From assembly GCA_951230915.1 (NCBI GenBank), contig OX579639.1:24428001-24492000 (forward strand): 64,000 bases of DNA, in the 5' to 3' direction. The notes beneath the pieces were generated by a model, which was not told the DNA's origin, searched no databases, and was given only the letters and a program-made list of their open reading frames with translations. This document shows positions 31,437-60,639 of this stretch, in pieces. The number at the start of each line of letters is the position of its first letter. Within the stretch, counting starts at the first letter, position 1. The stretch is from Antitrichia curtipendula. Taxonomy: Eukaryota; Streptophyta; Bryopsida; Hypnales; Leucodontaceae. The translations under genes and the position numbers were made by a program.

Positions 31437-31710
31437 GGGACCGCCTGTCCGCCTGGTCTCCCGTCCGCGCCTTGATCACCTCCGTCCGACGGGCGGACGG
31501 TTCGACCGCCTGTCCGCCTGGTGTCCCGTCCGCGCCTTGGTCACCTCCGTCCGACGGGTGGACGGTCCGACCGCTTGTCCGCCTAGTCTCCCGTCCGCGC
31601 CTTGATCACCTCCGTCCGACGGGCGGACGGTCCGACCGCCTGTCCGCCTGGTGTCCCGTCCGCGCCTTGGTCACCTCCGTTCGACGGGCGGACAGTCCGA
31701 CCGCCCATTG
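31437..31710. repeat. 65-bp GC-rich tandem array (about 4 copies), cut by the gap
   Basis: CCCGTCCGCGCCTTG recurs at 31460, 31525, 31590 and 31655, exactly 65 bp apart. Units alternate between TCTCCCG...GATCACC and TGTCCCG...GGTCACC forms, giving a 130-bp higher-order period. The array reaches the contig edge, so its true length is unknown. The same unit, reversed, begins contig 3 at 52058. Confidence 0.95.
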
Positions 31711-33950
31711 GACCATGGCAGTGCATGTTTTTTTCTCATTTAGTGCAGCATAGGATTCCTGAAATGGCCAAGTCATTTCCAAAGAGTGTGCCTTCATGAC
31801 AACAAGCATCCAATGTGAATACTTCAAAGACATTGAACTCCTCATGGCACCGACATCAAACTTCATTCTTCAATGTGCACATCATATTTTTAGGTGCAAT
31901 CTTGAAATTAAACATCTCAATGATATTTTGAAATGACCATCTTGAAAGATCAAAATGAAATGCTACCTATAGTTCTAAATTTTTTTTCTAAATTTTTGAT
32001 GATAGATCGTAGATTTAATTATATTCAAAAATTTATTTGGATTTTAATCATATATTACTATATACTGTAAGACATTTCAATTTTAAAATAATTGTTTTTA
32101 TAAAGAAATTTGTCGAAGTAAGCCAAATCCGACTTAATGTCATGAAACTAAAAACAATTGCTATGTACTTATATAATACTATTGCATCAAAGTCACGATC
32201 TTCTAAGATATTTGTATGCAAAGTTCTAATATCGGATTTAGGATTTAGGATTGCGAGTTCATGTCATTCATATAAATGTTGTCCAAATTAGAAGTGTATT
32301 TTGAAAATGGATGTGTGATAATATTTTGATGTAATATTAAGAAATCATTTTGGTCATGATAGTATAGATTGATACCTAATTAGTAATTACCTACTTATAA
32401 GATATTGCCCCATTCAATGTCAAATAATGTTGTCAAAAATCATTTGGAGTTATATAACTTATATGTTGTGGACTTGCGGTCTTGCGGAGTGCGGATTATG
32501 AAGTTAGAAAAAGCATATAGAGTTGTCTTATGTCTCTAGAATTCAAAGTTCTTTATTCAAAATTGATATCAAAGAATATTAATTGTCTATTAGAATATTT
32601 TTTTCATTGGGATTAACAATTCTTCAATTCTTCCAAAAGTTATTAGCGTATTATTTTTCATTTAATAGTGCATCAATTTCTACTTCACAAATTTAAAAAA
32701 ATGAATGTATAGTTCTTTTGAGTTTAACCTCTAATTCTCTAAAGTCCCATTGTCCCATCGGGGGACAAAATGGATGTAAGATTTTTAGGCAGGCTCCTAT
32801 GGCCTCAATATTTTTTGTAAATTTCTGAGTTTTTTTGGTATCTTTTAGAATAAATAACTTGAAGTATTCATTTTTGAATTGAATTCTAAGAGTTAAAATA
32901 AAATAAAAAAATTCATGAGGTCTACATTCCTTGCTAGAATAATCTCAGAGTAGAAATTAGTATATTTCGATTCTATCTTACTATCTTAGAGCTATTAATG
33001 ATTTAATTTTTCCTTCGATCTTGAATCTACTTCTACCTAACAATTTTTTAATGAGTGAAAACTAAGTGTTTCTTTTTTAAAATCTTTTTTTTAGATTCTC
33101 AACTCAATTGTTTATCATATAAAATTAGACATTCACCATCACTAGAGTAGCCTTTTTTAGTTAAAAAGGTTCATCGCAAAAAAATGTAGTTAAGCAAGGT
33201 GCCAAGGTGCCTAAAAAGTAGCGGTTAAACATTTCACATTTAATCATTTATTCATAACTCAATTGCCTAAATTTTGGCTAAAATGCACAAGGTGAAAGAC
33301 GTACGTGAATATTCCTCAAAGGGTTGAATGACCAAACATCCCAATTTAGAAAAGCTAGAGAAGTAAACATTTAATTTTTAAATTCCATGCACAATTGCAC
33401 ATTGGTGAATTCTTTGAGGTATAAATTCATGCAACTAATGTGGGACAATGGTGTTGATAAAGTTACATAAAATGTCTATTGTTGAATTTGTTTAACAAAA
33501 TATATTCACATAAGAAATTAAAAAATTGACTTCAAAGCTTTATTTGCGAACTTGTGTGTGCTATGAATTCAAGAAACACCTAAACCCAATCAAGAATCCT
33601 CAAGTTAAGTTCTTAATTGAAGATGGTCCATATATTTCTTGAGGAACTTAATTTGCATTTGTTTTCATATTTTTAATTAGTTATGATTTCTTACATTTGT
33701 AACTTTAGAGTACAATTTAGGATTTAGGTTTTAGGGTATAGGGTTTAGGGTATAGGATTTAGGGTATAGGATTTAGGGTATAGGATTTAGGATGTAGGAC
33801 TTAGTGTATAAAATTGAAGATCTTTGCATTAAAAAACGCTAGAGTTCTATTTAATGATTCAAGTTCTTTAAATAAGAAAGTGAATGTCGATGAGATTTTT
33901 GTCTTTCCCATCCTTGTCATTATTTGCTGGTTGAGGTCGTTTTAGGAGTC
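31711..33950. other. gene-free AT-rich interior of the hAT-like element
   Basis: No coding sequence is recognised. Around 32724 a TTAA followed by CCTCTAATTCTCTAAAG and TGTCCC...GGGGACAAA resembles the left end of the MITE at 42706. A right end could not be placed, so a worn MITE copy may occupy about 32728-33210. A telomere-like tract follows at 33716-33800. Confidence 0.45.
33716..33800. repeat. interstitial telomere-like repeats
   Basis: Degenerate copies of the plant telomere unit TTTAGGG occur as a 14-bp pattern, TTTAGGGTATAGGA, about five times. A shorter, similar tract lies at 51178-51215. They are internal and degenerate, so they are not a chromosome end. Confidence 0.7.
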
Positions 33951-33956
33951 AGATGA

Positions 33957-34235
33957 TGCAGCCGTCCGCCTGGTCGGACGACCTCGAAAAATCTGTCAAT
34001 TTGATCTCCACTTGAGAGGGGCTGTCCGATCAGGCGGATTGCCCAGGTCGGACGGCCCTGGGCGGACGGCAGCCGTCCGATACATCAGGGCCGTCCGATG
34101 TGTCGGACGGGCGGCGTCCGCCTGATCGGACGGTCCTTACAAGGCGGACGACTGTCCGTCCGCGTCGTCTCGTCCGCCCGATCAGGCGGACGGGCGAGGC
34201 GTCCGCCTTGCATAAAAGAGTCGGACGGCCCATCC
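33957..34235 (+). promoter_or_regulatory. GTCCG/CGGAC cluster and TATA box of the kinase-like gene
   Basis: There are over a dozen GTCCG or CGGAC words, several arranged as palindromes such as GTCCGCCTGATCGGAC. A TATA-like CATAAAAGAG (34211-34220) sits at the downstream edge, about 245 bp before the probable ATG at 34456. The same layout occurs before three other genes of this element. Confidence 0.6.
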
Positions 34236-34407
34236 ACTTCTCACTTTTATCTTCCCCCTTGTGTCATGCAAGAGAGAGCGGAGAGCTTGGTGGTTTATCC
34301 TCCATTGGCTCCTTTCTAAAGGAAGATAAGAGTGTGATTTCTAGGGGATACTTGTTGCTTTTTTTTCTACATTTCGTGTATGATCATTTGGCAAATCGTA
34401 TATTGCC

Positions 34408-35940
34408 TTGTGGATTACAAATTGCAAGTGCACTTCTAAACGTGATTTCATCACGATGCCGAGATCAAAGAAGGCTGCGAAGGACAAACGAGTGAAGTCG
34501 GACAGTGAGGCGAATATGGACGCTCCTTCTCTCGCTTGCAAAGCATTTCTCATTGAATGCATTGTCAATTTTTATGAGTCGGAAACCACTGCGTCGTTGT
34601 ATACCAAATATGCGAGGTATGAAGACGAGTGTCCAGCTAAATTCAAGGGAGATATGGCACAGAAGTTCACGGATGCTTTAAACGTACCCTATTGGATTCA
34701 TGAAATGGAGAAGAAGGGCTTTCAACAATTTTTGAAGAACAAGGTCCATGATGCATTGTGGAATGCAAAGGTGATCTTAGAGAAGTACGGGAAGCAACAC
34801 CGCATAGGTGATGGCGCTTTTGAACAGGTCATTTTGAGGGCAGACTTGTTTGTTCGCCAGTGTGCCCCTTTTGCAAAGAATCGAAATAGGCGAGGTTCAA
34901 TGGGTTGGTGGAATAGTGATGAGGGAGTTGTGGAGTTGCAACGTGGGCGACGACATCTCTTAGCGCTTCCGAAAACAGCAAGGGTGATTCCACAAGATGA
35001 TCAAATCCTGAGGGGTGGATACGCAACAATTCGAAGGGTCCGAATTGAAGGATGTCGTGAGATACCCACATTTTGTGAGTTCGCAGCGAAGGTATCTCAT
35101 CAACAACGCATACGACCTCCGCTCGCAAGGTTGGAACACCAAAACGAGTCAATGGCAGTGAGAATTCCACATGATGGAGTTATCCGGTTTTTTGTTGTTC
35201 ATGCAACGCAAAACGAAGGGTACTCGTATTGGTGGAATGGCGGAACATTGAAGCAAATGTTAAAATTGGATAAGGAATATCCCGATAACATTGGCATTCG
35301 GTTGGCTTATTCTCAACCGACCCCGGAAGAGGTGACGAAAGCTTTTTTTCTTGGTCGTTGGAGGAAGAAGCGCACGGAGCTTGCATGGGCATTGGTGCAC
35401 CTCATGAATGCAGTGCACAGCGCTGGACATTTGCACAATGATCTTTCACTGGACAACATTATGTTTCACTTTCCCAATGATGAGTCACGTGTTTACATTG
35501 GAGTTTGCGATTGGGGCATGACTACTTTACGTAATGAACCAATGAAGTCCTTGTACACGTTCACCTCTCAGAGTGAGCGGACTGAGACCTTGAAAAAGAG
35601 GTGGTGGGTAGACCCTTCTATTGCATACTTGCACCAAAGAGACGCGGATGTGTCAATGATACCGGATTTATCACGTAAATCGGAGGAATATGCGGTTGGT
35701 CGAATAGCTCAAGCCATCAACAATGGTTGCATGTCGACGGACTACGTGAGCTTACATCGGAAAAATGAAGGACATACAAGATTTAGCCATGAGGATTTGG
35801 CAAGGATTTTTCACCTTTACTTGGAGCGCCTTTGTGATTCGGTGATTGATTCTCGCGGTAGCTTGTCCGAAATCATCCATCGATTTACCAATAATTACAA
35901 CTGGCCTATTCCGGATGAACACTTCCGCCACTCATATTAG
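34408..35940 (+). CDS. protein-kinase-like protein, 510 aa (or 494 aa from the second Met)
   Basis: One uninterrupted frame. I favour the second ATG (34456, MPRSKKAAKDKR) because the neighbouring element gene also has an internal MPRN start, but 34408 is possible. Residues 1-200 have no recognised domain. From about 200 a kinase fold is suggested: GGYATIRRV (glycine loop, about 203), FAAK (beta-3 Lys about 228), HNDLSLDNIMFH (catalytic loop, 343-354, with HND in place of HRD) and CDWG (368-370, with DWG in place of DFG). The metal-binding Asn is kept (N350), so activity is possible. It sits inside the hAT-like element between its GTCCG cluster and a nested MITE. It is the only long gene of the element with no stop or frameshift, which suggests either youth or selection. 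Confidence 0.8.
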   Translation: MWITNCKCTSKRDFITMPRSKKAAKDKRVKSDSEANMDAPSLACKAFLIECIVNFYESETTASLYTKYARYEDECPAKFKGDMAQKFTDALNVPYWIHEMEKKGFQQFLKNKVHDALWNAKVILEKYGKQHRIGDGAFEQVILRADLFVRQCAPFAKNRNRRGSMGWWNSDEGVVELQRGRRHLLALPKTARVIPQDDQILRGGYATIRRVRIEGCREIPTFCEFAAKVSHQQRIRPPLARLEHQNESMAVRIPHDGVIRFFVVHATQNEGYSYWWNGGTLKQMLKLDKEYPDNIGIRLAYSQPTPEEVTKAFFLGRWRKKRTELAWALVHLMNAVHSAGHLHNDLSLDNIMFHFPNDESRVYIGVCDWGMTTLRNEPMKSLYTFTSQSERTETLKKRWWVDPSIAYLHQRDADVSMIPDLSRKSEEYAVGRIAQAINNGCMSTDYVSLHRKNEGHTRFSHEDLARIFHLYLERLCDSVIDSRGSLSEIIHRFTNNYNWPIPDEHFRHSY

Positions 35941-36289
35941 TGTCTATGGTGTTAGTGGACGAAATAGAAGTGATAGAACTATAAAAGTATTAGGTAAATG
36001 TAGAGGCGAGTACATAAATTTGCATGATTGTGTGCAAGGATTTTCTAGTATATATATGCACCATCAATGTATGCCAATATATATGCACCCTTATAATTCA
36101 TATAAAGTTTTGAAATGTTTGTGTGTTTTGAAACTTCCAGTGTCCAATGTCTACCATCTATTTATGCATTCATCATATATTTTGCTTGAAATCCTTGAAT
36201 GAGAAGTGCAATGCAACAATTATTGTTGATGGATGTTAGCTTGGTCTGGTTGGGTCCAAAATTGTATAATCAATGTTGAACACATATAA

Positions 36290-37231
36290 CCCCTAAAAGA
36301 CCAAAGTGATTTTTTTGGCAACATAGCGATTTTGGGCAGCTCACTACAAATGAAATTTATATTTTTTTTCTTTGAAATTTTCATACAACACGTGCCCGAG
36401 GAGTAGCTTTAAGGCCCAACAATTTTCATACATTTAGACTACATGGTTAAAAAGTTATTGCATGATATGTCATTTTCAGTCCTTGGCGGGCAGCACGGGC
36501 AGCAAAAAAAACTTCTTCAAAAATCACTTTTTAAGAAAATAAAAATTTTCAATTGGTTCTTTAGATTTATATGTACATGGGAAGCTTTGAATCATTCCAT
36601 TTAGATCTATGAGTCAAAAGTTATGAGGATTCTTAGTTTAAGGGTAGTTATGGAATTTCAACTCTAAAATAAACTTTGAAGACTTGAAGTCTTTTATTTA
36701 ACTCAATTTTCAATATTTTTGAAAAAAAATAAAAACATTGGGTGTAGATTGTTTATTACAACATTACAACCGTTGGATTGGCATTTTTCAATTCCATAAA
36801 TTAATTCTTCACAATTTAGTGTTTTGAATCATTCTCTACCTCTTCCTACTTACTATTTTTTTCCTATATGTTGTACAATTCCAAATGATCTGAAAATTTT
36901 CAAGCATGTAGCCAACTTGCCTTCAAGAATAAATCCAAAGAGTAACCACCATTTTGGACATTTTTTCATATGAATGTGACCTTGTGAAGGGCAGCTGCCC
37001 GTTTTTTCGCAGGGACAAAAAAAGGATTTTTGTCAATTCAAACACTATTATCTTGCAATCCACATGGTGGAAAATTCTGAAATTTTTTCCACATCTTCTT
37101 AAACAAGTTTACTACAAGATCCTATGGTTACATGTGTCCAAGAATGTTTTTTTTCTAAAATTTGACACTAGTATTAGAAATGGCAGTTTTGGAACGTTTT
37201 TGGTGAAAACATAGTCAAAAACAATTAGGGG
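36290..37231. mobile_element. TTAA-type MITE, 942 bp, TSD ATAA
   Basis: The ends are CCCCTAAAAG and CAATTAGGGG, flanked on both sides by ATAA (36286-36289 and 37232-37235). It is the inverted copy of 16586-17698 over most of its length. It is nested in the hAT-like element between the kinase-like gene and the Cys/His-domain gene, so it arrived after that element. It is non-coding. Confidence 0.8.
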
Positions 37232-37513
37232 ATAATGATAATAGAATTTGGTCATGCGCAAATATTTTTTATATTGAAAAGCAACACAGTTGATACTTGA
37301 ACAATACCGCTATGATGATACCAAGTACCAACCTCCAAATACATTTTAATACAATATATTTACATCAAAATATTTTAGTACGTAAAATCGTAAATGCTAT
37401 TCGCCGAGATGCCGATATGTTTGTACTATGATTGCCACACTCCATAATTCAATAACAAAAGATTCCAAGGCCCGCTCGATTATGAGACAACAACTAAAAT
37501 AGCTCTACCTACT

Positions 37514-38647
37514 TTACTCGGAATTTGAATGGATGTCATCTCTACGTTTTGATGGTGTGGAACCGGATCCATAAGTGCCAAGATATGGTCCTCCGCCCCA
37601 AGTGCATTCATAGTCGCTTGGCGTAGCTCCTTGATTGGGATTTCCATAGTAAGGACCTCCAAAAGTTGGAGGAGGAACTACATCATGGTGCTGAGACCTT
37701 CCTTGCCTTGGTTCGACATGATGAGAGCCTGTGTGACGCTCATATGAACCACCCGTAGTAGATCCGGACAAGTATTGGGAGCCTCCTTGGCTAGATCCAA
37801 AATCATGTGTGGTTCCATGGCTTCTTTCTGGGTTGTAATAAGTACCTCGGGGGTCGTTAGCATAGTGTAAGACCCTTTGACCATCTTATGGACCAGATGC
37901 AGTACGATCATATTGGTAGGACCTGTCATGCCCGTGTTGTTGACCCCGATCCTCCATGCTCCTACGTATAGCTTTTTGCATTTGTTGATTGAACTCGATG
38001 TCTTCCCGAGCTTCTTGACGCTCATGTCCCACTGTAAATGTTACAGGTGCTGGATTGTCTTCTACATCATCATCGTCCGACCATTCATCCTCAGCATCCG
38101 GCAATACAACCGGCAGAAATCCAAACTGCCCTCGATTGGACCACATTTGCATACAATCGCTTGGTTGAGTCCAACTCGTATAAATAACAGCGTCAGTGCG
38201 CTTCATATTGTCAACATTTTTCCCGTAAATTATGCGCCAATCTACATCTTTGTGGAGTACAATCTCTGTCCAAACCATGGCCATGTTAGAATAATTCATA
38301 ACATTTGGTTTGGAGTCAGGCAGCTCAGCGCACTGCGTTACTTCCTCGTATCGGTGCACAAAGTGTTGGCTCTCGCACGTGGAAATTTGTCCTTCCCAGT
38401 GTCGAACTTGTTTGTCTGCTCTTTCTTGTGACCACATTTTGAAGAGGTGCGTCATTTTGACGTACTTTTTGCACATTGTGCAGTCCCAAACCTTCTTGGG
38501 CTCTTCTTCCCATCCAGGTTCAGCTACACACATTGGATTTGCCCAATCTCCCCAGTTCATGTCCTGGGATTTGCCTTTGTTACTGGACCTTGAACTACTA
38601 TTGCGAGGCATGATAACCTTGATTAAAATGAAATGATTTGATGACAA
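37514..38647 (-). pseudogene. element protein with unrecognised Cys/His N-terminal domain, one internal stop
   Basis: The frame runs from 38647 (or ATG at 38611, MPRNSSSRSSNKG) to 37514, about 378 aa, broken only by a TAA at 37886-37888 (GP, stop, DGQRV). That stop can arise from CAA by one C-to-T change. The N-terminal third has W-x-C-x2-C-KKYVKM, a spaced Cys, and HFVHRYEEV. The same pattern (ICKRYVKM...HFVHRSLEV) opens the RING protein at 57412-60057, so the two share a domain I cannot name. An acidic run (EDEWSDDDDVED) and a Gly/Ser/His/Tyr-rich low-complexity C-terminus follow. It is read inward from the element end at 39229. The function is unknown. Confidence 0.7.
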
Positions 38648-38869
38648 AGTTCACATGAAACTTTAGAACAACTTAACAAAATGTTTGACACTTGCCAATG
38701 AAACGAGGTGAAGTTGTTAACAAGGCCTTCAAAACCAAGTAATCACCAAAATAAATTGGTGCAATTCAGTATCCGAGCACAATCGTTCACGCACCAAAAC
38801 AAAAGGGGCGCGCAGAGCCACTGAGAGGCACTGGATCACCCACTCCGCAAGGGAAACGATTGTGAGGAA

Positions 38870-39210
38870 TGAGCTGTCCGCCTGGCTATTTATGGCGTCC
38901 GAAGGCAGACCAGGCAATGGGGACGCGTACGTGCGAATCGGACGGCCCAGAATCGGACGAGCAGATCGTGCGGACGGGATCGCGTCCGCACGATCCCGTC
39001 CGCAAGATCCGTCCGCGCGATCTCGTCCGCTCGATCGCGTCCGTCCGTCGTCCGCCCTGTCCGCCCGAGGGCCCGTCTGCGGGACTGTCCGCGAGCCTCC
39101 CGACCGCGCGGACGATCCGACCGATCGGACGGCCCGTCCAGGGATGTCAAAAGACGTCCAGGGGTCAGCGTCCACGTCCGCCGGACGTGGACACGGACGT
39201 CCGGACGTCC
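38870..39210 (-). promoter_or_regulatory. GTCCG/CGGAC cluster and TATA box of the Cys/His-domain gene
   Basis: This dense cluster of CGGAC/GTCCG words lies between the element terminus and the gene. The end-proximal part is GGACGTCC repeats with GTCCACGTCCGCCGGACGTGGA forming a hairpin. A minus-strand TATA box, ATAAATAG, lies at 38886-38893, about 280 bp before the ATG at 38611. Confidence 0.6.
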
Positions 39211-39237
39211 GGACGTCCTGTCAACCCTGCTCCCACA
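39211..39237 (-). repeat. hAT-type terminal inverted repeat and 8-bp target duplication
   Basis: The terminus, read inward on the minus strand, is CAGGGTTGACAGGACGTCC. The outside 8 bp, on the plus strand, are CTCCCACA. The partner at 60632-60639 is TGTGGGAG, the exact reverse complement. Confidence 0.85.
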
Positions 39238-40689
39238 AAAGGGCAAAAAATGGGACCCTAGCAATTAATGCCCAACAAAATGGGGACTTGCTATGGTAGA
39301 GCTCAAAACAAAATGGAAAGACAAATGAAGGGACAACTTGGGGAGAACTTAGGTAGGAGGCTTGAATTTGGAATAAGCATTTTTAAGTGACCCTACAAAA
39401 ACGGCAAAAATGGAGCATTATGCAGTTGAAATGGATGAAAGTTTTTATAGTAAAATTTTGTCAACCTATATGTGTCTTCATAGGGCATTCAAGAGTCCAA
39501 CAATGCAATTGCAAGAAACATTTACAAAACATAAGCATGACCATTTGGAATAGCACAAAATACATGTGTTGTGCAAGAAGTTGAATAAATTAGTATTTAC
39601 AAAGTTAAGTGAGTTTAATGCAAGCTTATTGTAGAGCATTTTTTTATTGCCTTCAAAAGTGAAAGTGTTTTTTTTCGTCACCAATATTCATTATAGTGAC
39701 GCATAGGGGCTACTATACAATCATATACACTTTAGCAGACGCTAGTAAATACCTTCATAAAGCTTAACTGAATATTTTCAAATACACAAAAAAAATTTAA
39801 CAAGACATGGCGGATGACACTTCTAACCTCCAAAGCGTGCATACAAAAATTCTAGACATCTGAGGTTTTTGTCCACAGTAGAGAAAAGGCGCACAGCCGC
39901 ACACAATGAATCAGAAGTTGTACCACTAAACACATTGTGAGATTTTTGTGTATAATTAGGGTTTTTTGCATGGAGATCTAAGGGAGCAATATGACAGACA
40001 AAAATGTTTCATTGGAGAAACATTATGGAGAAGCAACAATCACAGCAACATAAGGCGGAAGCCACTAGCGAAGATACTAGGGTTGTCTTGTTGGACACAT
40101 ATTTGAATTTCGGTGACGTGTTGGATGAGCGACGTTGCGTGTCTAGTGGACGAGGTGTTAAATAAGCCCGTCCATAAGCTTCTAATAAGGGTCTAAAAAA
40201 TCATTAGCCATCCACTCAAATAATTTAAAATCTCCCTATAATTATGAATTCAAATTTAGAATGTAATATGTGTTTATCATATTGAGACACTTCACTGAAA
40301 TGAGATTTGAATATGCTGAGTTAGCATGAATGAAGGATCATTTACTTGAAAGTCAAACTTAAAGTTGACTTATTGGATGTTGCAAGGGCTCTACTAGACG
40401 TTGTCTAACGTCTGTTTGTCGAGTTGTCCCGATGTTTGCCTGTACAACCATGGAAGATACAAAGCCCTATACAAGACTACTAGCCTTGAAGATCCACTAC
40501 CCGCACACTATATTCTTTCAAAGTCAATGGCAACGATCCCACCAGCTCCAATCAAGGCACAACCATCGACAATAGGCGGAGGAGCTTATATAATGACAAA
40601 ATTGCAGAGGCTCCATTGACCAACTCATGTACAAGTACTGCATGTCCTCTTGACCTACCAACTTGCCCATGATTTTGATTCAATTAGAG
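39238..40689. other. gene-free stretch
   Basis: AT-rich, with only short open frames and no recognised gene or repeat boundary. Confidence 0.5.
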
Positions 40690-41717
40690 AAATCCGCAGA
40701 GAAAATTGAACAACAATTAGTCAAATCAACAACTGAAAAATGGCATCAATATTATGGATGATGGTTTTCCTCTTCGGATACTAGTCAGGGATCATGGCAT
40801 CCCAACGACAACTTTTAGAGGACATCTTTATGGAACAATACTTCACATAAGAAGAGGTAGGAATGGTATATTAACTGATGAAGAGAAAAATGAATTAGTT
40901 GAGTACCTTTTGAACATGCAAAATATGTGATTTCCACTTACCATTGGGCAACTTTGGGAAAAGGTGGGAATACTTACACAAGCAAAAGTCATCCCTTTCA
41001 AGGATGGGATGCCAAGCCTTGGATGGATAAAAGATTTTTTTAAAAGACACAAAAAACTGGCCATGAATAAACCACAAGCCCTAGAGTAGAAACAAGTAGG
41101 AAACCTTTATCTAGAGATTGTGGCCTTGCTTTATGACAATCTGCAAAGCTCTACACACGACTATGAAGTACAATACACATGGAACTGCAACAAAAATAGA
41201 GCCCAAGTAGGAGAAGATGGCGGAGGTTATGTTATCGCAAAGAAAGGGTCAAGTAATGTGCATACAATTATCTTTGATCAATACAAGTAGTTATTTGTTC
41301 TTTCTTGTATTAATGTAAAAGGAAAAGGTTTGCTAAATTTTTACATTTTTAAAAGCAAGAGAAGAAGCAAGAACTCTCTCAAATAAATTGGAAAGAAGGG
41401 AGTTGTAATGGTGATGCAACCCAAAACCTGGATGACCCACAATTTATTTAAGATTTGGATTTTTTATTTTTTGTTTTCAATTTCCAAGTTATATAGGATT
41501 TTTCCAACTAGAAGACATTTATTCATTCTCAAGGACATGGCTCACATATAACCATGGAATTTATTAAGTTAGTTCAAGCCAAGGAGTTGGATTTTCTCAC
41601 ATTTCCTTCCTATACACTCCAACCTTTGGACGTCTTATATTTTAAGCCTTTCAAGCTGTTTTTTTGGGCATACCGAGACAAATGGACATTGGGCCACAAG
41701 GGGAAGTTACCTGTTAA

Positions 41718-42701: not shown

Positions 42702-42705
42702 TTAA

Positions 42706-43285: not shown

Positions 43286-43794
43286 TTGAAGAAGACTTGG
43301 TGTAGTGGATTTTCCATGCATTTGAAGAATGCTCTTTCCATACAAAACATTACAAAGGATTTTTCTATACAACAACCACCTTTTCCATCAATCCAAAGGC
43401 TATGGATACAAAATGAGACCAAAAATTGTTTACAACACAACTCGTAGATCAATAGCTCATGCAAGCCACAAAAGCCAAAACAAAATTCAAATAGACTGGT
43501 GATCGCACACTATGGTTGCCCCTAGGCACGATATACAAACTAGTGCGACAAGTACCAACTGTACAGCAGTTGGTATGCAAGATATCCCAACGACTTTGTG
43601 GCAAGAGACAAACTAAACAGACTGTACCATTGGTATGTGTATATTTCGGCGACTTCCCAGCGATTGTGAATGACAATGTCTGGCGCCTTTATAGAGGATT
43701 CAAGGCTTTGATCCAAGGTTGTAGTTTTTATTTTTGAGTTTGATTATTGTAGTGTATGCGTATTAGTTTTAGTTGTTGGGAATGGCAAATCAAC

Positions 43795-44125: not shown

Positions 44126-44149
44126 AGGATATCTTAAAAATATAGGGGC

Positions 44150-47378: not shown

Positions 47379-47382
47379 TTAA

Positions 47383-49330: not shown

Positions 49331-51410
49331 AGTGTAATTCTTCTAATCTTGTAATCTTTTTTTGTACTTAAAAAGTTCAAGTTCATCAAGATTTAGTTAA
49401 ATGGGTGGCTTGCTTGCAATTGGATTATCAGAACCTTTGTATGCTTGATTTAAATTATATATTACCAAGACTCTAACCATATTTTTTTCCCAACTCTCAA
49501 TTAAATCAATATTAAAATCGTTAATGTAATTAATATTGTAATCTCCAAGATTAGAAAAGTATTTTAACTTTTTAATTATAAAATCATTTGTACATGCATT
49601 ATTTTTTATTGCTACCACATTTCTTTGGCTTTAAGATTGTGGCATATATTGATAATTCTATTTATGTTAAGATTTTTGGTCCTATTAGTTGATATTGACA
49701 ATAGTATTTAAATTTTTTTGTGAAGTTAAGAAAAACTATTTTTTAAGATGAAATCTACTTGTAACCATTAAAGTATGACATACTTACTCCAATCATTAAT
49801 TTCAAGGTATCCATTCTACAAAATAACATTGTTTAAGATTTTAGAATATAACATTGCCTTAAATGTCAAATTTAGGTGTGATGACATTAATATATGTTAA
49901 AACGTGTGTTGTAAAATTTTGAAAAAATCCACAATGTATGTAAAATGAGTTGCAATGAGTTACAATACATTGCCCAAGGTAGAATAAATCACTTATTGTG
50001 GTAGGCAATATATGGCCAAGATACCCAACCTTAATTTTCAACATGATCTACAATAAAAAAAATCATAAATTAATTTTAGACCAGGAATCCCTCTGTCTTT
50101 ACAAAAATCCACATTATAAATCCAACGTTTTACGTAGACCTTTGAATAGACTCATAAAATTCTCTCTGACACCATATTCCAAAATACAAATATTAATTAT
50201 TTATATGACCGCTATTCAATACCATCATTACTTAGATTACAAGCATTCAAGCACTTTTCTTTGTTCAATTATAATCGACTAATTTACTCCAATGAAATCC
50301 ATATTCTCCTTTGAAGCACAAGAATGCAATTGTTTTGAAAAATCAATCAATATTACATAATGTACATGTTTGGTCTTGAAAAAATTCACGAGATCATGTG
50401 GAGATGGGTGATTCTCCATTTCACCAATATTGGACCATCTAATAAAAGTATAAAATTGATTGTACAATTGTAGTTTAATAATATTGATCCTTTAAATTTG
50501 ATATGCATCCTAAGCCCAAATTTAAAGTAACCCTTCAAATCAAAATTGCATGTTTCACATTTGCATATTACAACAAGATGAATTGATGATATTATTTTTG
50601 ATGTAGAAGTACATAACAAATATGTACATAAATGAGGTCCATAATTGTCATACATGAGGGATTATCATATTTTAAGGTCAATCACCTTCTTTACTATCAA
50701 AGCCCCCATATTTCAGGTATGAGATATATTGTTGACGGTTTACAATTTAGGGTATAGGAAAATAACTTTAATTATATTTTGGTTGTATGAATGCAATATT
50801 TAATTTTGAGCTACATTAAATTACATTAAATTACATTGAAGTGCTTAAAGCATTTTTAATAGCATCCTCTAATAGAATAATAAAATAGTATAATTAATTG
50901 TATCGTATTTAGATTGTTTATTTTGGTGTTTCAAACTATGAATGCATTTTACAACAAAACTTAAAAAAATACTTTAGGTTATAATTACATGTTCTACTTT
51001 GTACATTGGTACAGAATAATTGATGAAGAAAACAGAGAACACATTGGAAACATAAATGCATAAATTCGTGAGGTTCATATGTGCTATATTTTGATAATGA
51101 TATTTAAAGGGAATTGAAGGCCAAATATATTTCGCTCATTGCATCAATGTTTTTGGTAAATAATGTAAAATTAAAAGCTTAGGGTTTAGGGTATAGGTTT
51201 TAGGGTATAAGATTTAAAGTATAGCATTTAGATTATAGGCTTACATTCGTAGAAGAATAACTTCAATTATCATTCTTTGCATACATTAATGTATAGTATA
51301 TGCTTATAGCATTGAATAGCAGTCTTTGAAAGCAAATTTGTGCTTTTGAGAATCCAATGTTTTTAGTAGAGGAGGACAGCTGGGCGAATGGCAAAATAGT
51401 TGTTATGCAG
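49331..51410. other. gene-free AT-rich stretch
   Basis: No gene is recognised. A short telomere-like tract (GGGTTTAGGGTATAGG) lies at 51181-51215. Confidence 0.5.
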
Positions 51411-51546
51411 AAGCTTGAGCAGATGGGCAAGCCAAGAAGTCGGACGCAAAGCTGGGCGGGTGGACACGAGGTCGGACGGGAGGTCAGATGGATGGTCGGA
51501 CAGGTGGGCTCAGGCGGACGGGCGGTCAGCCGTCCGACCATCTGAC

Positions 51547-51857
51547 CGTCTGACGACTAAAATATGGCTCATAATATACCATTGGAAAGGTATTGTCAAG
51601 AGCTTTCCAATGGTATATTATGAGCCATATTTCGACAAAAACTTCGACGGTGAGGTCCTTACAAAGATTGAGGTCGACCAAGTCGTCTGCCCATCTAGCA
51701 GACCGATCGACTGACCGTCCGAGGACTTAAATATGCCTTATAATATATCATTGAAAAGGTATTGTCAAGAGCTTTTTAATGGAATGTTATGCATCTAATT
51801 TAGACAAAATTTCGGCGGTGGAATTCCTCCAAGGATTAGTTGATAATCATTAGTGTA
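51547..51857. repeat. hairpin tandem units, second block (2 copies), running into the gap
   Basis: Two units starting near 51547 and 51714 duplicate the pair at 49007-49330, including the order of normal then variant unit and the following CTCCAAGGATTAG and ATTAGTGTA. At 49349 that sequence continues ATTCTTCTAATC; here it meets the N run. This predicts what should lie in the gap. Confidence 0.8.
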
Positions 51858-52308: not shown

Positions 52309-55300
52309 CTATGGTTGATAGTCACTATCTCCTTTGACTTCAGCCCCACTACTCTGACCTGTTGTATCCCATCCGGAATCATCGTCACTGGATGAATTTT
52401 GCATACTATCTGATGAAGATTGTACAATCTTTCCTCCTTCTTCTTGTACTTGTTTCGATGTGCTTGATCTCACTGGTCTACCTAACTTATGATCCCTTTT
52501 GACTTTTAGTAGAGACTTTCCAATACCTCCCTTAAGATCGTGGATTGGTTTCACCTTTCGCTTGGTTAGAGGCAGACTTGCATCAAGGGGGGTTCTACCT
52601 ACATTTTGTTTTTTCAATGGAGAGATTGCAAAAGGCTCCATTATTCTTTTCCTCTTAGCTTTTTTAGACTCCTTCACCGCGGGTGGACATGCTTCCGAAC
52701 CTCCTGGACATTGTCTTCTCTGCGGACAAAGCTTCCACTGTAAGGTTTGAAAATTTGATCGGAGAATGCTTTGCATGGCTAGAAAATTGACGAAACATAG
52801 ACTCCAATGTTTGCACATCATCGTTGTCTGATGAAACGGATGGATTGGGATTGGCTCCAATATGCAATTCCTTCAAATTGCTCAAATGTTGTTCTTTGAA
52901 CCGTGAGTCTCCAGGACCATTCAAAGTCGTGCTACCGCTTGTATATAGTGCATGTCGAGGACCGCTACGTGATGGTAATTGAGGATCTCGCACGAGGTGC
53001 TTCATGTCTTTGGCGTTGCGGTGTGGCATTGGGCACACGGACTCCAATACACATGGATCTTGACTTCCCTCTATTCGAGGTGCTTGGGCATTTTGAATGC
53101 CGAAAAGTCCAATAGTTTCACTTGTCAATGCCCTTGGTAATTCAATGTTTTGGTTGATCACATTTGTGTGGGACTTCACCCCACACTCTCTCATGTCTTC
53201 GTGTTGATCATTTTCTTCCGCTCCTACCGTTGTCATGGATGGACACTCGAAAATTCGAATCACTTCATCCATTTGGAGAGTTTCATCACCTATAACCATT
53301 TCCTCATCTTCCTCCGCTACCTTCGCATGAGTATTTTCTCTATTTGCTAGAATGTTTTCACTACGCAACAATCCGGTTCCATCTAAGTATTTAGCTATGG
53401 AAGGTCCACCTTCGTCATATTCACAGTCGTCCTCATCCAACGGAAACTTGTAAGGGTCTTCACAATGATCTCCGATGTCTGCATCATAATGAGGTGGGCT
53501 TCGAAGCGGTTCATCATCGAAATTGCGGATGCCGTGGTCATCTTCATCGTCCATGAGGGGATCAACTTCTTCACCGGATTCACCACCCTTGTCTTCCGAT
53601 GAAGACAAGGCCGAATCCTCCGAATCGAGGTTCTCATCGTACCACTTCTTCTCGTCATTTTGCTTTGATGCACCAAGGACTTTGGAATTGGTATACACAT
53701 ATACCAAATCCTGTGCTCTTTGTGGCTTCAACTTGTTCCGATATTTGTTGTGAACAAAAGAATAGCTACTCCAATTTCATTCACATGAAGACGATGATAC
53801 CGGTTGGGCCAAAATCCTCTTGGCAATTGGAGCAATGAGCTTCCCGCACGCGCCCTCAAAATCCCACCAAGCATGCGCTGACAATTGTTGTTCACCCGGA
53901 TCCAACATGTTGTGGAATGGAGGTTCCCTATGGCGGAAGGCTACAAATTCCTTCACCACCTTTGCATACTCTGAAGGTGTACATATTTGCATCAAAACGC
54001 GCTTGCATGCAGCCATGGCATCGGTGTCGTCGGCTAGTTCTTTGTCTTCAAGAAGGTAGGGATTCAAAAGTGCTCCTGCATAATGTAAATCGGTCTTCAC
54101 CATATCACATCGTTCGTAGAACGCCTTCACCAACGGGATGGCTTTATCCAAAGCCAAACAAAAAGGCTCTTTGTCTAAAGCGAGGACGTGCTTCTCTAGT
54201 TTCCTCATAATATGTAACACCTTGCCCATACATGGTGTCTTCGCATCCAAATCATAAAGAGCACTGACAATTGGAGCTGTCACATCTTCAAAATTTTGAC
54301 AACGATGCCAAAAATGCCCACTTAGAATGGTCTTCTTCACCCGTTCGGATTCTAAACGAGTTTTGGATTTTCGCGAGTGCTTTCTAGCATATTCCTCCCA
54401 TTGCAGGTCCGTCACAGTTTGTTGCAATTGTGCTTTCACCTTGAGCATACGTGCAACCATGTTGTAATTCGAGGCAAATCTTGTTTCCACCGCCAACAAC
54501 AAGTTGTACTGCGTCGAATATTTCCGAAGTATCGCAAGCGGCATGTGCCTCTTCTTGAAGAATTTGACTATCTTTTGGGAATCTTTCACGACGTCATCAA
54601 TCCATTGTTCGTTTGCCCAATCTTTTAGCAACAAATTCAAGGCATGCACCACGCAACCTTGGAAAAAAATGTGGGGATAGGTAGTAGATACCAAACTCCA
54701 TGCTGCTGGATTTACAGCCGCATTATCTGTACTCACCTGCACTACGTTTGCAGGGCCCACTTGTTCTATAAAACTCTCTAATAGAGAAGCCAAATATGGA
54801 GCATCTTTTGTTTTCCCAGTTGTATCCACCGATCCTAGGAATTGCTCACCCGCGGATGACACAAGCATGGCATTTATCAATGGCCGATTCGAAACCGAGG
54901 TCCACCCATCAATAGACAATGTGGCTCCAAACTTCTTGATACTGGTTTCTGTCCGCTTACGGAGATTGACCTCTAAGTCTACCTTAGCTTGGTCAAGCAA
55001 TTTATGACGTAGATCATGGTATGATGGTGGGCTATAAGGTTGGTAAAACTCCGCCGTTTTCTTCACTGCTTCTTTGAAGGCTGGATTTCGGGCTACAGCA
55101 AATGGTATATTTGCCGCATAAAAGAAATTGGCCCACATTGCATTCAAAATGCGTTTATTTGCTTCGTCGAATCCCTCTACTAGCCTACTCTGTCTTTGAG
55201 GCCTACTGCTTGATGTCTGCTGAGTTCCACGTCCACCTGATGCTTGTGTACTTGGATTTCCTTGGAAAGAACCACCAACATATTCCTTTGGTGCCGTGCA

Positions 55301-55666
55301 TGAGACTTCTTCAGTAGAGTTTACAGTGTCTCTCGCATTTGACATAGCACGAACAACCATAGGCATAAGTGTGTCGTTGCCATCCACATTGTGTAGAGTA
55401 CCTCTTTGTGGAATCACTCCATTGCAACGAACAAATAGACCTCAAACTTCAGATGTCATTTGAGTATAAAGGCTGATTCTTTTGTCACGACTCCATGATG
55501 TGCCTGCATATCCCAAATGACTAAACATACGAACCGGCTTCTTGGCAAATACCAATTTGCAAGCCTGGCATTGTACTTTTCCATTTGATAGGGTTTCGTA
55601 CCAAAAAGACCAATCCTTGGTCATGGTGGCTGTTTTAGGCTCTGTGTATTGAAACCCTAAATTCAA
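52309..55666 (-). pseudogene. hAT-family transposase (BED finger, DUF659, hAT C-terminal domain) with two in-frame TGA codons
   Basis: One frame runs from the ATG at 55666 to about 52700. The N-terminus has a BED-like finger (VQCQACKLVFAKK, then FSHLGY). The DUF659/RNase H core has LSIDGWTS (first Asp, near 54907) and VSTDNAAVNPAAW (second Asp, near 54732). The C-terminal dimerisation domain has WWDFEGACGKLIAPIAKRIL, SSSSCE, a stop, NWSSYSFVHNKYRNKL and DLVYVYTN. Stops are TGA at 55442-55444 and 53777-53779. The second sits exactly where hAT proteins have Arg (CERNWS), so CGA to TGA is likely. A long acidic tail follows, with a frame change near 52700-52750 into a basic tail ending at 52309. 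All stops removed, it would exceed 1,100 aa, long for a hAT. Confidence 0.88.
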
Positions 55667-56595: not shown

Positions 56596-57411
56596 CTAAC
56601 CCTCTTGTTCCTTAAGTCTTCGACTTGCTCTACGAGTTTGAGGACCACCCGACCCGGAGGCTGTGCCCCCTCCTGATCGGACTTCCATGTCCACGGCGAT
56701 GAATTGTCGTTTGGTTTCTGGAGAGTAGTCATCTTCGTCTTCCATCTTTCGTTTATTTTTCCTTGTGGGAGACAAATCTACTTCTTGTGCCTTTAACGCT
56801 CTCAAAGTCGAATAAATCTTTTCTATCATAGCATTTACCGCTTTGTCATCATCTCGAGGGGTCAACGAGATCGCTTGCCCTGTGCCATGTAGAAAAGTCC
56901 TCCACGTCGTTATAATGTCGGTAATCCTTTTATCAAATGCACTTGCCACCTCCACGAGTGCATGTTCTGTGCTTGATAGCCCATCTACATTAAAAACGGC
57001 ATGAACTTGCGCAGCTTCTTCCAATTTTGATAAAAAGAGGGCCCTCCCTATTAAGCTGTGATTGTATGCTCCGTACTGCTCATTGAACTCTTGGGATGGT
57101 TGCACTTCTATCCAGACACCATCTTCTCCTTTCCGCACTTCCTTTTCAGGAAATCGGAAGAACTTTTGATGTGAGATGCTCCAGTGTCCCCCCATACTAC
57201 GACAAAACAATTCTCGAGCCTCCAAGTCTTCAATACCCCTGGCCCGCAACTCCACCTCTCTATTGCGCATCATCCAGTCAAAGTCATCCAATTCGTCATT
57301 GTAGTTTTTACAAACATCATGCATGAGTTTTTCCGCATTCCAAATTAGAGGTCGCCCCCAATGAATGTAATTTTGGAATAGAAATGGCTTTTGGTCAAGT
57401 GGAAGGGTCCA
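56596..57411 (-). CDS. frame continuing the RING-protein gene after a TGA
   Basis: This stretch is in the same reading frame as the RING-H2 protein and separated from it only by TGA at 57412-57414. Directly after the stop it reads WTLPLDQKPFLFQNYIHWG, then an internal Met at 57324 (MHDVCKNYNDELDDFDWMM). The 242-aa portion has FCRSMGGHWSISHQKFFRFP, a helical middle and a basic tail (KNKRKMEDEDD, RRASRRLKEQEG) that looks like a nuclear signal. Either it is the C-terminal part of one about 1,150-aa protein cut by a single mutation, or it is reached by readthrough (TGA followed by T), or it is a separate gene without its own promoter cluster. I favour the first. Confidence 0.55.
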   Translation of the reverse strand, partial: WTLPLDQKPFLFQNYIHWGRPLIWNAEKLMHDVCKNYNDELDDFDWMMRNREVELRARGIEDLEARELFCRSMGGHWSISHQKFFRFPEKEVRKGEDGVWIEVQPSQEFNEQYGAYNHSLIGRALFLSKLEEAAQVHAVFNVDGLSSTEHALVEVASAFDKRITDIITTWRTFLHGTGQAISLTPRDDDKAVNAMIEKIYSTLRALKAQEVDLSPTRKNKRKMEDEDDYSPETKRQFIAVDMEVRSGGGTASGSGGPQTRRASRRLKEQEG

Positions 57412-60057
57412 TCAATTGTGTTCGTGGCTAGGGGGCATGCTCTTCTTGTGCCCAACCATTTCGTAAAACCTAGGGCTCAAAGGAGAACGACACTCGAGAC
57501 AAACCGAACGAACAAGGGATGATTTCACCATGCACGTGACATGGTAAGTGTGGCGACATTGGCCCATGATTAAAGCGCCCTCGGGACCAAAATGATTTAG
57601 ACAAAGGCTGCATTTATCCTCCAATAGTTCCGTATTTGAACTTTCACCATGCACTACTATCTTGTCCGCCTCTTTGATGTGCGCTGAATGCGTGTTGTAA
57701 GGGGCCCAACCTTCTTCTACTTCCAAGGTCCAATTCATGGACTTTGACGCAATCTTCTGCGCGTCATTCAATCGCTCAAACATTGCCGACATGTCCCCCC
57801 AATATGTGACGTCAATTGAACCCCAATGATGTACTTCAAACATCCTTCTAATAGATAAGAGGTCAGAGGAAATGGCATCGCATTGCTCCTTCGACTTCAT
57901 GGCTAATTTGAGAAGCCCCTTCATTGCTCGGGTTACTACAGACGGTTTGTCTTGTAGTTTTTGAACCCACGTCAACCAACGAGTGTCGGAACTGCTCTTT
58001 GGCAAGCATTTATCTAGCTCCATTACTTGCATCATTTTCTGATATTGTGCCTCCAAATAGACGTTTTGTTGAGTTACCAACTCTAGTTCATGCTTCACCT
58101 CTTCAAACTCGTGGCCTTCCGTTTGCATGGACGTGTCTTGGAATGTGGGAGGAGGATTATCCATGGCGGTTTCGGATATTACTTCCTTTTGGTTGTTTTC
58201 CTCAACCGCTTCTATACGCACGGCTCCGCCGATCTTTGGAAGAACATATCCTCCATCCTTCAAATTCTTTTGCTTGAGCGTTACAATTTCGTACTCCAAT
58301 TTCTCGATCAATTCCCTTTGAGAAACTAGAGTGTCATATCGGGAATCCTGTGCATTTGCAAATCTTTCATAATTAGCGCACACTCTTTTGAATGCATCCT
58401 TCAATTGCTTGTGGTCTTCTTTCAATTTCTCGTGCTCTATCTTCAAAGCCTTGTATTTTTCATTCTCTTCAGCGAAGATGAGCAGCTTGCGATTATTTTC
58501 GACCCGCTCCTCCAATAATGGTTTCATAGACGTGACGAAATTCCAAAACGACAAGGCACCTTCCACCAACTCGGGCCCGTATTTGGTGAATATCTGAGCA
58601 ACTTCCATAAGTTTGGGGGCAATGCTAGCTACAAATTGAGCTGTAATCGACAATCTTTTTGAGGTGATTACAAAATTGGGCCATTGATCACTGTATTCGG
58701 CGAAGGGATTACTGGGTCCGGCCTCGTTTGCGGTTTCAGTTAAGCCCGCCTTGTTTACGGGGTTACTAGGACCGGCCTCATTTGTCTCGATTACTTGCTT
58801 TGGTTGAAGAAAGATGTCTTGTTGATGTGCCCTAAACAAATAAGAAGCTTCCAACAAGCTTTCCAATTCCCTCGCCATTGGCAAATGACGAAGATCCTCC
58901 AATTGTGCCGTATTTTGAGTTGACAAATGCGGATAGCTCTTATCCAATGGGTTGTCATCAATGGACACATTTTGCGCCATGCCATCGAGTTGCTTTCCAT
59001 TTTTTGGCAACATCTGCCCTTCAACTCTTGGGCTCGATACGGGGCCCAACATGGGGCTTGATACGGGGCCCAATACGGTGCCCAATACGGGGCTCGATAC
59101 GGGGCCCAATACGGGACTCAATACGGGGCTCGGTGTGGTTGGCAAGTCTTGATTGCAAGGTACTTGTGTCATAAAATTCATAGCATCGCTCGCTATGATA
59201 TTATCAATTGATGCAATGGCCCTTGCCATTTGTTCGGGACGAACCTCTTCCCGATGTTTTTGTGGTGCAGACGGGGTCACCGGTTCCTCCTTCACGGGCC
59301 GCATGCTTGAAGCACCACTTTGTTCACCCACGGATGTAAAATTGCGTGTGCATATCCAATCCGCCCGAGGAGTTGAAAACACCTCTCCGTCAACACCTTC
59401 CACCGTGGCATTTGACATTGTAGTTGGAATCTTCGTAGAATCCAAATGTACTCCAGTATTTCCCCCCTCCATGATCTCTTTTTTAACCTGCATTAAAGCA
59501 TGTTTTTGTCGCTTCTGTGATTTTGGTGCCTCACTTGGACTTGCCTTTGGATCATACAAATCGGGAATATCTTTTTGCCCTTTTGTAAGCAAAAGCGGAG
59601 CTGTAGTTGTCGTTGGATATGTGCTCCAGTCCACCTTCCGAGCCAATATGAGCTCAGCATACGCCATAGAGGCCACGCTGGAGTTTATGAGACCCTTACT
59701 CATTGATTTGTCCCCGAAGAGGGCCCGCCAAACCTCAAGTGATCGATGGACAAAATGTCCATCCTTGCAATTCGATGGCCTGCAACAGAACCCTCGTGTG
59801 TGAATAATGTGGAACTCACGAGGCCACAACTTGTCGATGTGATACATTTTCACATATCTTTTGCAGATTTTGGAGGTCCAATAAGTTTCTTCCTCCTTCT
59901 CCCATTCGCTCTCCGCTTTGATATTTGGATCATCTAAAATGTCCCAGTGAAGCTCGTGGGCAGTCCCCTTTGATTTTGTCTTCGCGCTCTTGCCACCTCT
60001 TGAAGTCATCGCTACAGTACCCTTGCTCGTACCTTCCGTTGTCATGGCTGACGACAA
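57412..60057 (-). CDS. coiled-coil RING-H2 protein with Cys/His N-terminal domain, 881 aa
   Basis: The N-terminal region (about 30-135) has HWDILDDP, ICKRYVKMYHIDKLW, CCRPSNCKDGHFVHRSLEVW and a following AYAELILARKVDWS, shared with the gene at 37514-38647. The middle is disordered, with Pro/Ser/Gly tandem motifs (GPVSSP, about residues 310-345) and a repeated NEAGPSNP. From about 520 two coiled coils follow (KALKIEHEKLKEDHKQLKDAF; KHELELVTQQNVYLEAQYQK). The C-terminus has a C3H2C3 RING (816-856: CSLC, CRHTYHVTC, CLEC), so it is a candidate E3 ubiquitin ligase. It is read inward from the element end at 60631, mirroring the paralogue at the other end. The frame is uninterrupted to TGA at 57412. 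Confidence 0.8.
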   Translation of the reverse strand: MSSAMTTEGTSKGTVAMTSRGGKSAKTKSKGTAHELHWDILDDPNIKAESEWEKEEETYWTSKICKRYVKMYHIDKLWPREFHIIHTRGFCCRPSNCKDGHFVHRSLEVWRALFGDKSMSKGLINSSVASMAYAELILARKVDWSTYPTTTTAPLLLTKGQKDIPDLYDPKASPSEAPKSQKRQKHALMQVKKEIMEGGNTGVHLDSTKIPTTMSNATVEGVDGEVFSTPRADWICTRNFTSVGEQSGASSMRPVKEEPVTPSAPQKHREEVRPEQMARAIASIDNIIASDAMNFMTQVPCNQDLPTTPSPVLSPVLGPVSSPVLGTVLGPVSSPMLGPVSSPRVEGQMLPKNGKQLDGMAQNVSIDDNPLDKSYPHLSTQNTAQLEDLRHLPMARELESLLEASYLFRAHQQDIFLQPKQVIETNEAGPSNPVNKAGLTETANEAGPSNPFAEYSDQWPNFVITSKRLSITAQFVASIAPKLMEVAQIFTKYGPELVEGALSFWNFVTSMKPLLEERVENNRKLLIFAEENEKYKALKIEHEKLKEDHKQLKDAFKRVCANYERFANAQDSRYDTLVSQRELIEKLEYEIVTLKQKNLKDGGYVLPKIGGAVRIEAVEENNQKEVISETAMDNPPPTFQDTSMQTEGHEFEEVKHELELVTQQNVYLEAQYQKMMQVMELDKCLPKSSSDTRWLTWVQKLQDKPSVVTRAMKGLLKLAMKSKEQCDAISSDLLSIRRMFEVHHWGSIDVTYWGDMSAMFERLNDAQKIASKSMNWTLEVEEGWAPYNTHSAHIKEADKIVVHGESSNTELLEDKCSLCLNHFGPEGALIMGQCRHTYHVTCMVKSSLVRSVCLECRSPLSPRFYEMVGHKKSMPPSHEHN

Positions 60058-60139
60058 GTGATATCAAAAAATAATTGACCTCACTCTCCACCCGTATAGG
60101 AGCAACCAGCACAATGAAGCAACGGTTGTAACGTCCGAC

Positions 60140-60610
60140 ACGGGTTCCACCTCTAAATGGAGAGAAGAAATGAGGAAAAATGGAAGGGCCGTCCGCCTTT
60201 ATACCCGTCCGCCACCAAACCTAAAGTAGGTCCGGCTGCGGATGCCCTCCCAAACCTCCCGAAGCGGACTAGGTCGTCCGATTGATCAGACGAACCTACT
60301 GTCCACTCAATCGGACGGTCTGGCCGTTCGCTGGATCGAGCGGCCGGACCGTCCGCTGGTTTGAACGGACGGACGGACTGTCCGCTGGATCGGGCGGCCG
60401 GATCGTCCGATCAATCGGACGATCTGACCGTCCACTTGATCGGACGGTCGGATCGGCCGAGTCGAACCGCCCGTCGGCCGACCGCCATCCGCCCGTCTGC
60501 CCCGACCGCCCGTCCCGTGGTCTGGGTCTAGCGGACGGTGGCCACTACGTCCGCGAACGCTGCGTCCGGACGTCCGGACGTCCGATTTTTGGACGTAATT
60601 TGCCCCCAGA
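60140..60610 (-). promoter_or_regulatory. GTCCG/CGGAC cluster and TATA box of the RING-H2 gene
   Basis: About 400 bp of near-continuous GTCCG, CGGAC and palindromes such as GTCCGATCAATCGGAC lie between the element end and the gene. A minus-strand TATAAA (60198-60203) lies about 145 bp before the ATG at 60057. GGACGTCCGGACGTCC at the outer edge matches the cluster near 39200. Confidence 0.6.
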
Positions 60611-60613
60611 CGT

Positions 60614-60639
60614 TCCAATTCGTCAACCCTATGTGGGAG
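60614..60639. repeat. hAT-type terminal inverted repeat and 8-bp target duplication
   Basis: The end reads CGTCAACCCTA (60621-60631), which inward is TAGGGTTGACG; it shares AGGGTTGAC with the end at 39229. The next 8 bp are TGTGGGAG. Confidence 0.85.

Follow-up and report, generated by a model that had tools for sequence, protein, structure and literature searches.

The stretch of DNA analyzed here (the window) comprises 64,000 nucleotides of the moss Antitrichia curtipendula and corresponds to C7:24428001-24492000 of the species' own genome (400 Mb, 303 scaffolds). It holds one copy of what is read as a hAT-superfamily DNA transposon that is present in many copies and has four genes, encoding a zinc-binding-like protein (A), a predicted protein kinase, a hAT transposase, and a putative RING-H2 ligase, and contig 2 of the window is read as misoriented in this assembly; we give this reading a probability of about 0.88. 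A sequence-only reading of the window had proposed a hAT-like element of roughly 16.4 kb with kinase and RING genes that becomes whole only after contig 2 is flipped, and independent copies elsewhere in the genome match that proposal.

The window copy and the orientation of contig 2

Contig 2 (31437..51857) lies between two gaps of 200 N each (31237-31436 and 51858-52057). The L end of the element (39201..39229, inward on the minus strand) is composed of the terminal inverted repeat (TIR) CAGGGTTGAC with GGACGTCC subterminal repeats; at 39229, the inward strand is CAGGGTTGACAGGACGTCC and the outside flank is CTCCCACA. The R end, as read in the sequence (60568..60631, minus strand), has TAGGGTTGACGAATTGGAACGTC with GGACGTCC subterminal repeats, and at 60631 the inward strand is TAGGGTTGACGAATTGG and the outside flank is TGTGGGAG. 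The two flanks form an identical 8-bp target site duplication only when contig 2 is flipped, the L-side copy (39230..39237) being CTCCCACA as scaffolded and TGTGGGAG after the flip, while the R-side copy (60632..60639) is read directly as TGTGGGAG. The end bases, outside 8 bp, gaps, and subterminal repeats given by the sequence-only reading were all as stated when the sequence was read again, and inverting 31437-51857 yields the same duplication on both sides, as it had claimed.

A central tandem array of 65-bp units, rich in guanine and cytosine (GC-rich), was recognized by sequence comparison at the left edge of contig 2 (31437..31705) and of contig 3 (52058..52130), with four matches of 67-72 bp (85-89%) between the two edges, on opposite strands as scaffolded. 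Flipping contig 2 lets its array run on in the same direction into that of contig 3. Contig 2 thus appears to be placed backwards, because the collinear whole copies, the edge arrays, and the geometry of kinase and RING genes described below all fit the flipped order, and this would be the main cause of the broken look of the window copy. The matches of the contig-2 and contig-3 parts meet or overlap within the array in nine of ten whole copies; little sequence is therefore probably missing in the gap, and the window element would measure about 16.4 kb.

The claim that both ends face left as scaffolded holds for 39229 and 60631, and it overlooked a third L-type end at 48292 that faces right (CAGGGTTGACAGGACGTCC, flank CTTCCTAC). 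The flanks of 48292 and 60631 differ at six of eight bases, compared with none of eight for 39229 flipped and 60631, and the body of the insertion at 48292 matches the element in the terminal ~72 bp and one array unit of ~65 bp alone. An element running from 48292 to 60631 as scaffolded is rejected on this flank mismatch and on the body. The gene-poor, array-rich insertion at 48292-51857, for which no second end was found within the window, is probably a non-autonomous relative.

Copies of the element in the genome

Exact L ends were found at 131 places in the genome and exact R ends at 140, compared with zero for both in a reversed-pattern control, which makes a chance origin of the ends very unlikely. 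Pairing of the ends used 97 of the 131 L places (three listed L places on C7 were dropped) and 100 of the 140 R places. Among the places used, 27 convergent L/R pairs lie within 30 kb, compared with five of wrong geometry. Of the convergent pairs, 19 span 15.3-19.7 kb, seven fall below 9 kb, and one reaches 29.9 kb. An exact 8-bp duplication flanks 15 of the 27 pairs, while seven have one mismatch, two have two, and three have five or six; up to two mismatches were thus seen in 24 of 27 true pairs, compared with 8 of 702 mismatched pairings, none of which was exact.

Ten of the 19 long pairs, free of N and 15.9-16.8 kb long, were fetched whole. All ten run from the L end through the contig-2 part (reversed), the array, and the contig-3 part to the R end; matches above 2 kb are 92-98% identical to the window, and short matches near the ends are less so. 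Together with the window copy, they make up the 11 copies compared below. YAGGGTTGAC stands at both ends of all 11, which were chosen by their ends, and at no inner place in any of them. A GGACGTCC repeat starts at base 12 from the L end and base 49 from the R end in each of the 11, and only zero to one time per copy at more than 200 bases from the ends.

Several features of the remaining pairs were also recorded. Short pairs of 286-3,042 bp were considered as deletion derivatives, a source rejected for the five that were fetched (L051-L055), each of which holds a gap of 200 N; assembly gaps thus recur inside the element, perhaps from the GC-rich arrays. For the pairs of 4.0, 8.9, and 29.9 kb, the ends alone were read. 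A subfamily with an extra 3-kb gene, considered from four pairs of 19.3-19.7 kb, was not supported, the extra DNA not being one same insertion: in C5:6057010 it breaks the transposase gene at element base ~9,910, and in the other three, as sampled, it lies nearer the L end (in coordinates of the reference copy, before ~6,034, at ~7,918, and before ~5,664). Nested insertions with like starts (TTTTTGGTTTTCAGTTGTT) break two copies (L082, L086, C5:20141999), and the ~3.4-kb one in C5:20141999 has long open frames. Per Mb, C5 has 1.69 of the listed L and R ends, compared with 0.45-0.68 on C1-C4 (chi-square p 2e-11); this scaffold might be heterochromatin-rich or represent a sex chromosome.

The four genes

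From the L end, the order is A (reading inward), the kinase (reading towards the L end), the GC-rich array, the transposase, and RING (both reading inward from the R side), followed by the R end. Gene A (37514..38611, minus strand), which encodes a protein of ~365 amino acids with an N-terminal zinc-binding-like module, starts ~620 bp inside the L end; the window gene has one in-frame stop (37886-37888). The N terminus of A shares 34% identity over 122 amino acids with that of the RING protein (1e-15), with conserved cysteines and histidines. The AlphaFold model of A has a mean predicted local distance difference test (pLDDT) score of 71.6, is confident at residues ~20-165 alone, and had no Foldseek match among PDB or viral models (best E 6.8 and 3.5). 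The zf-C3HC/NuBaID families touched A weakly in 10 of 32 aligned proteins (best E 0.0054; window member 15.6 bits, cut-off 22.2), and no profile match above the cut-off assigns A to them. Transposase families gave no match above the cut-off for A or RING, although a Mutator model gave a faint hit (E 0.081) to one of the 32 aligned A proteins. A appears to be a new type of zinc-binding-like protein.

The kinase gene (34456..35940, plus strand) is intact in the window, encodes 494 amino acids, and lies tail to tail with A. Its predicted model (mean pLDDT 85) matches the protein kinase fold at E 1e-9; across 42 aligned sequences, Lys212, Asn334, and Asp352 are invariant, and Asp329 is conserved in at least 90%. 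Pfam Pkinase stays sub-threshold (21.1 of 31.7 bits). With the modeled fold and the catalytic lysine, asparagine, and aspartate, the protein is assigned to the protein kinase superfamily as a predicted kinase.

The transposase gene (52309..55624, minus strand, start read by eye) carries the DUF659 and Dimer_Tnp_hAT domains. It is intact in copy C2:43297398-43313773 (1,105 amino acids), where DUF659 scores 1e-33 (116.5 bits, cut-off 34.7) and Dimer_Tnp_hAT 7e-10 (39.1 bits, cut-off 21.4); the window gene has two stops and one frameshift, and its dimerisation domain, broken by a stop, scores 16.3. In a weak match to Hermes (E 0.11), set against the positions that we take to be its catalytic D-D-E, the first aspartate (SIDGW) and the glutamate (SYERNW) align and the TDN aspartate is five residues off. 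An N-terminal BED zinc finger is common in hATs without defining them; none was found in the intact-copy transposase by zf-BED at E up to 1, a C-x2-C stretch being present at the N terminus, and this absence was not taken as exclusion. The terminal consensus of hATs is YA(A/G)NG, and the element, having a short TIR of this type, an 8-bp duplication, and both DUF659 and the dimerisation domain, is assigned on these features to the hAT superfamily.

The RING gene (56596..60045, minus strand) starts ~590 bp inside the R end and encodes ~1,150 amino acids with a RING-H2 near residue 820; one in-frame stop (57412-57414) interrupts it in the window. Its C3H2C3 zinc ligands were recognized by eye in an alignment of the window protein with long relatives, Pfam RING models are sub-threshold on the window protein (25.2 of 27 bits), and a precomputed RING label is carried by 9 of 13 relatives. 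The ligand pattern is that of RING-H2 E3 ligases, and the protein is a putative ligase.

The genes as fixed parts of the element

The transposase region is present in nine of the ten whole copies, and A, kinase, and RING sequence in all ten, some of it split or broken, so that these genes do lie between the same two ends elsewhere in the genome. Of 1,385 first-look candidates, at least 87 were scored as kinase copies, with 92-100% identity to the window protein. The test of the kinase surroundings used the 68 copies listed on C1-C6, with 56 of them on C1-C5, where the lists of both ends are complete. Among these 56, an exact end lies on the expected side for L in 27, for R in 26, for either in 45, and for both in eight, at distances of mostly 3.2-3.4 kb (L) and 11-13 kb (R); the control with kinase strands swapped gave zero for L and two for R. 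Free of stops are 27 of the 68.

The best 67 RING matches were reduced to 52 places after second pieces of the same gene were removed. A listed kinase lies within 25 kb in the geometry of the element at no fewer than 25 of these 52 listed places, a lower bound from the best copies only. Within 25 kb, the listed copies form 29 kinase-RING pairs, of which 25 show the flipped geometry and four another, one of these four being the window as scaffolded. The pattern expected of Pack-type capture, host-gene fragments unlike between copies, was not seen, the same four near-full-length genes recurring in nine of ten whole copies. The four genes are fixed parts of the element.

Selection and decay

Ten copies (the window included, C5:20141999 left out) supplied 1.9 kb of non-coding element DNA for a neutral spectrum, against which A and RING were scored in 11 copies and the kinase and transposase in ten; the shared-variant tests are one-sided, uncorrected for four genes, and count sites as independent. 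Variants found in a single copy are neutral in all four genes (0.96-1.20 of expectation). Those found in at least two copies are depleted in nonsynonymous changes in A (21 nonsynonymous, 15 synonymous; 0.48 of neutral, p 0.025), the kinase (25 and 19; 0.52, p 0.025), and the transposase (51 and 38; 0.52, p 0.002). These ratios suggest past purifying selection on the three genes. With shared variants depleted and single-copy variants neutral, copies decay after insertion, and a source lineage probably kept at least these three genes working. An earlier ratio of nonsynonymous to synonymous substitution (dN/dS), computed with no neutral spectrum (0.52-0.62 for all four genes), mixes decay with selection and has been superseded.

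Several observations weigh against the reading of a four-gene hAT transposon in a misoriented contig. C5:20141999 has both ends, but its transposase region is replaced and its kinase split by insertion. Flanks with five or six mismatches occur in three of the 27 pairs, including the copy with the intact transposase. No exact end lies by 11 of the 56 listed kinase copies, and, among listed copies, 27 of the 52 RING places have no listed kinase in the geometry of the element. As to present activity, at least one of the four genes is not intact in each of the 11 copies. The shared variants of RING give no significant constraint (125 nonsynonymous, 62 synonymous; 0.86, p 0.19), and the tests for A and the kinase are weak at the p value given for each. 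The flip itself cannot be proven from the window alone, the gap being unsequenced.

Proposed mechanism and alternative explanations

If the element worked as its sequence suggests, the hAT transposase would bind the YAGGGTTGAC ends and the adjoining GGACGTCC sites, excise the whole unit, and reinsert it with an 8-bp duplication. For the accessory genes we infer the following roles. A and RING, which have an N-terminal module in common and start on opposite sides of the element, ~600 bp from its ends, would recognize one partner, which may be the transposase, the element DNA, or a host silencing factor; RING would mark this partner with ubiquitin, the kinase would phosphorylate host or element proteins, and the accessory genes would thereby help the element to move or to evade silencing. 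It is rather likely that these three genes do serve the element. The fuller proposal of a moss-wide lineage of four-gene hATs, in which kinase and RING arms, linked by a new zinc module with which the genes at both ends begin, steer transposition or undo silencing, is tentative and more doubtful than not.

The kinase, RING, and A could instead be passengers, i.e., captured host genes or fragments of no use to the element, as in Pack-type transposons. Plant transposons do capture gene fragments, the copies are decayed, and RING is without significant constraint; however, four genes in one order recur in nine of ten whole copies, their long frames have full-length relatives rather than being fragments, the shared-variant constraint on A and the kinase resembles that on the transposase, and 27 of the 68 listed kinase copies (C1-C6) are free of stops, so this explanation is unlikely. 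It is much less probable still that the hAT transposase is a later insertion into a larger element mobilized by A or RING: the genes adjoining the ends are indeed A and RING and one of ten two-ended copies has no transposase region, but 8-bp duplications and YAGGGTTG ends are known products of hAT transposases, the transposase sits at the same place in nine of ten copies and is under constraint, A and RING have no transposase-family match above the cut-off (the Mutator touch in one A protein apart), and no inner YAGGGTTGAC occurs in the 11 copies, though a nested hAT could carry other ends. A correct scaffold, in which the ends belong to separate elements or to inverted ones, whether by a genuine inversion or by an element running from 48292 to 60631, is highly improbable: an L-type end at 48292 does face 60631 from 12.3 kb away, but its flank mismatches that of 60631 at six of eight bases (none for 39229 flipped), the 48292-51857 body has none of the element's genes, both breakpoints would have to coincide exactly with N gaps, and array and gene order favor the flip.

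Relatives in other genomes

Sixty-six kinase relatives were found. Those aligned over 96-100% of the query share 42-67% identity with it, and others are more distant (25-33%). Two of the former are named Ceratodon purpureus; one of these two is a cluster of 126 sequences, and its record of 110 Mb bears a name, KC19_VG..., that hints at the V chromosome. RING has 13 relatives (the best four at 37-44% over 93-100% of the query), and A has 47 (the best eight at 45-66% over 91-100%). Among the relatives for which a longest-contig figure was given (46 for A, 13 for RING), one A and one RING relative have the same figure of 17,649 bases, which suggests that A and RING may stand together on one contig of another source; no kinase relative has this figure. 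A bacterial or viral source of the kinase was considered and set aside, no relative being confirmed in one scan each of viral and prokaryote contigs. One kinase relative (P0016) is filed as a protein of a Bacilli metagenome-assembled genome (MAG) and is probably plant DNA in the sample.

Two further stretches of the window were noted. The sequence at 16577-17677 matches the interval between A and the kinase in the copies at 85-90% and is either what remains of an element or a repeat that lay nested in its ancestor. Transposase remains at 7879-8994 match DDE_Tnp_1_7 (3e-23 and 9e-7), and we take them to be of the piggyBac type.

Comparison with known transposons

The hAT superfamily includes Ac/Ds, Tam3, Hermes, and Tol2, and, to our knowledge, most known hATs are small and have a single gene. 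The moss element resembles the superfamily in its 8-bp duplication, short TIR starting from YAGGG, DUF659 and dimerisation domains, and subterminal repeats, and it resembles Ac in that the first base of the two ends differs (C/T). Unlike the usual hATs of a few kb, it reaches 16 kb, with three further genes and inner GC-rich arrays, and its TIR core of about 10 bp is followed by different L and R subterminal sequences. The mudrB gene of Mutator and the anti-silencing genes of VANDAL offer a parallel from plant DNA transposons, their accessory proteins aiding movement or undoing silencing; they belong to another superfamily, however, and no matching family scored above the cut-off in the Pfam scans made. 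Alpha-kinases, found in one of the fungal elements below, are a different type of kinase.

In fungi, ToxhAT is a 14-kb hAT transposon carrying ToxA, alike in being a large hAT with a cargo gene and unlike in its fungal hosts and in an effector cargo that has moved between species; the excerpt of the source used here has no mention of a kinase or RING gene (PMC9594970). Since ToxhAT has this size and a cargo gene, the size of the moss element is not unprecedented among hATs. The hAT7 transposons of rust fungi carry a TET/JBP dioxygenase gene and are thus hATs with an accessory enzyme gene, differing in their 7-bp duplications, fungal hosts, and dioxygenase accessory, with no kinase or RING gene mentioned in the part of the source consulted (PMC12730594). 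According to the same part of that source, the IS3EU transposons of fungi have alpha-kinase and TET/JBP genes; they are DNA transposons in which the kinase gene keeps a constant order and direction relative to the transposase, and they differ in superfamily, in their 6-bp duplications, and in the alpha-kinase (PMC12730594). The sequence-only reading had called size and cargo unusual for a hAT: as to cargo this stands, since kinase and RING genes in a hAT were not found by keyword in open papers of PubMed Central (PMC), a search scope outside which the subscription literature and Repbase lie; as to size, ToxhAT precedes it. The architecture may be described in the subscription literature or in Repbase.

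Significance

ToxhAT and hAT7 of fungi show that hAT cargo is possible. If the reading of the moss element is true, plant cut-and-paste elements are able to maintain their own set of regulatory genes, here within 16 kb and made up of a kinase, a RING protein, and a zinc module, and there are named genes whose part in controlling transposition or silencing can be tested in mosses. Small contigs with such elements can be misplaced in scaffolds, and multi-copy gene clusters in moss annotations, such as the Ceratodon kinase cluster, may be transposon genes.

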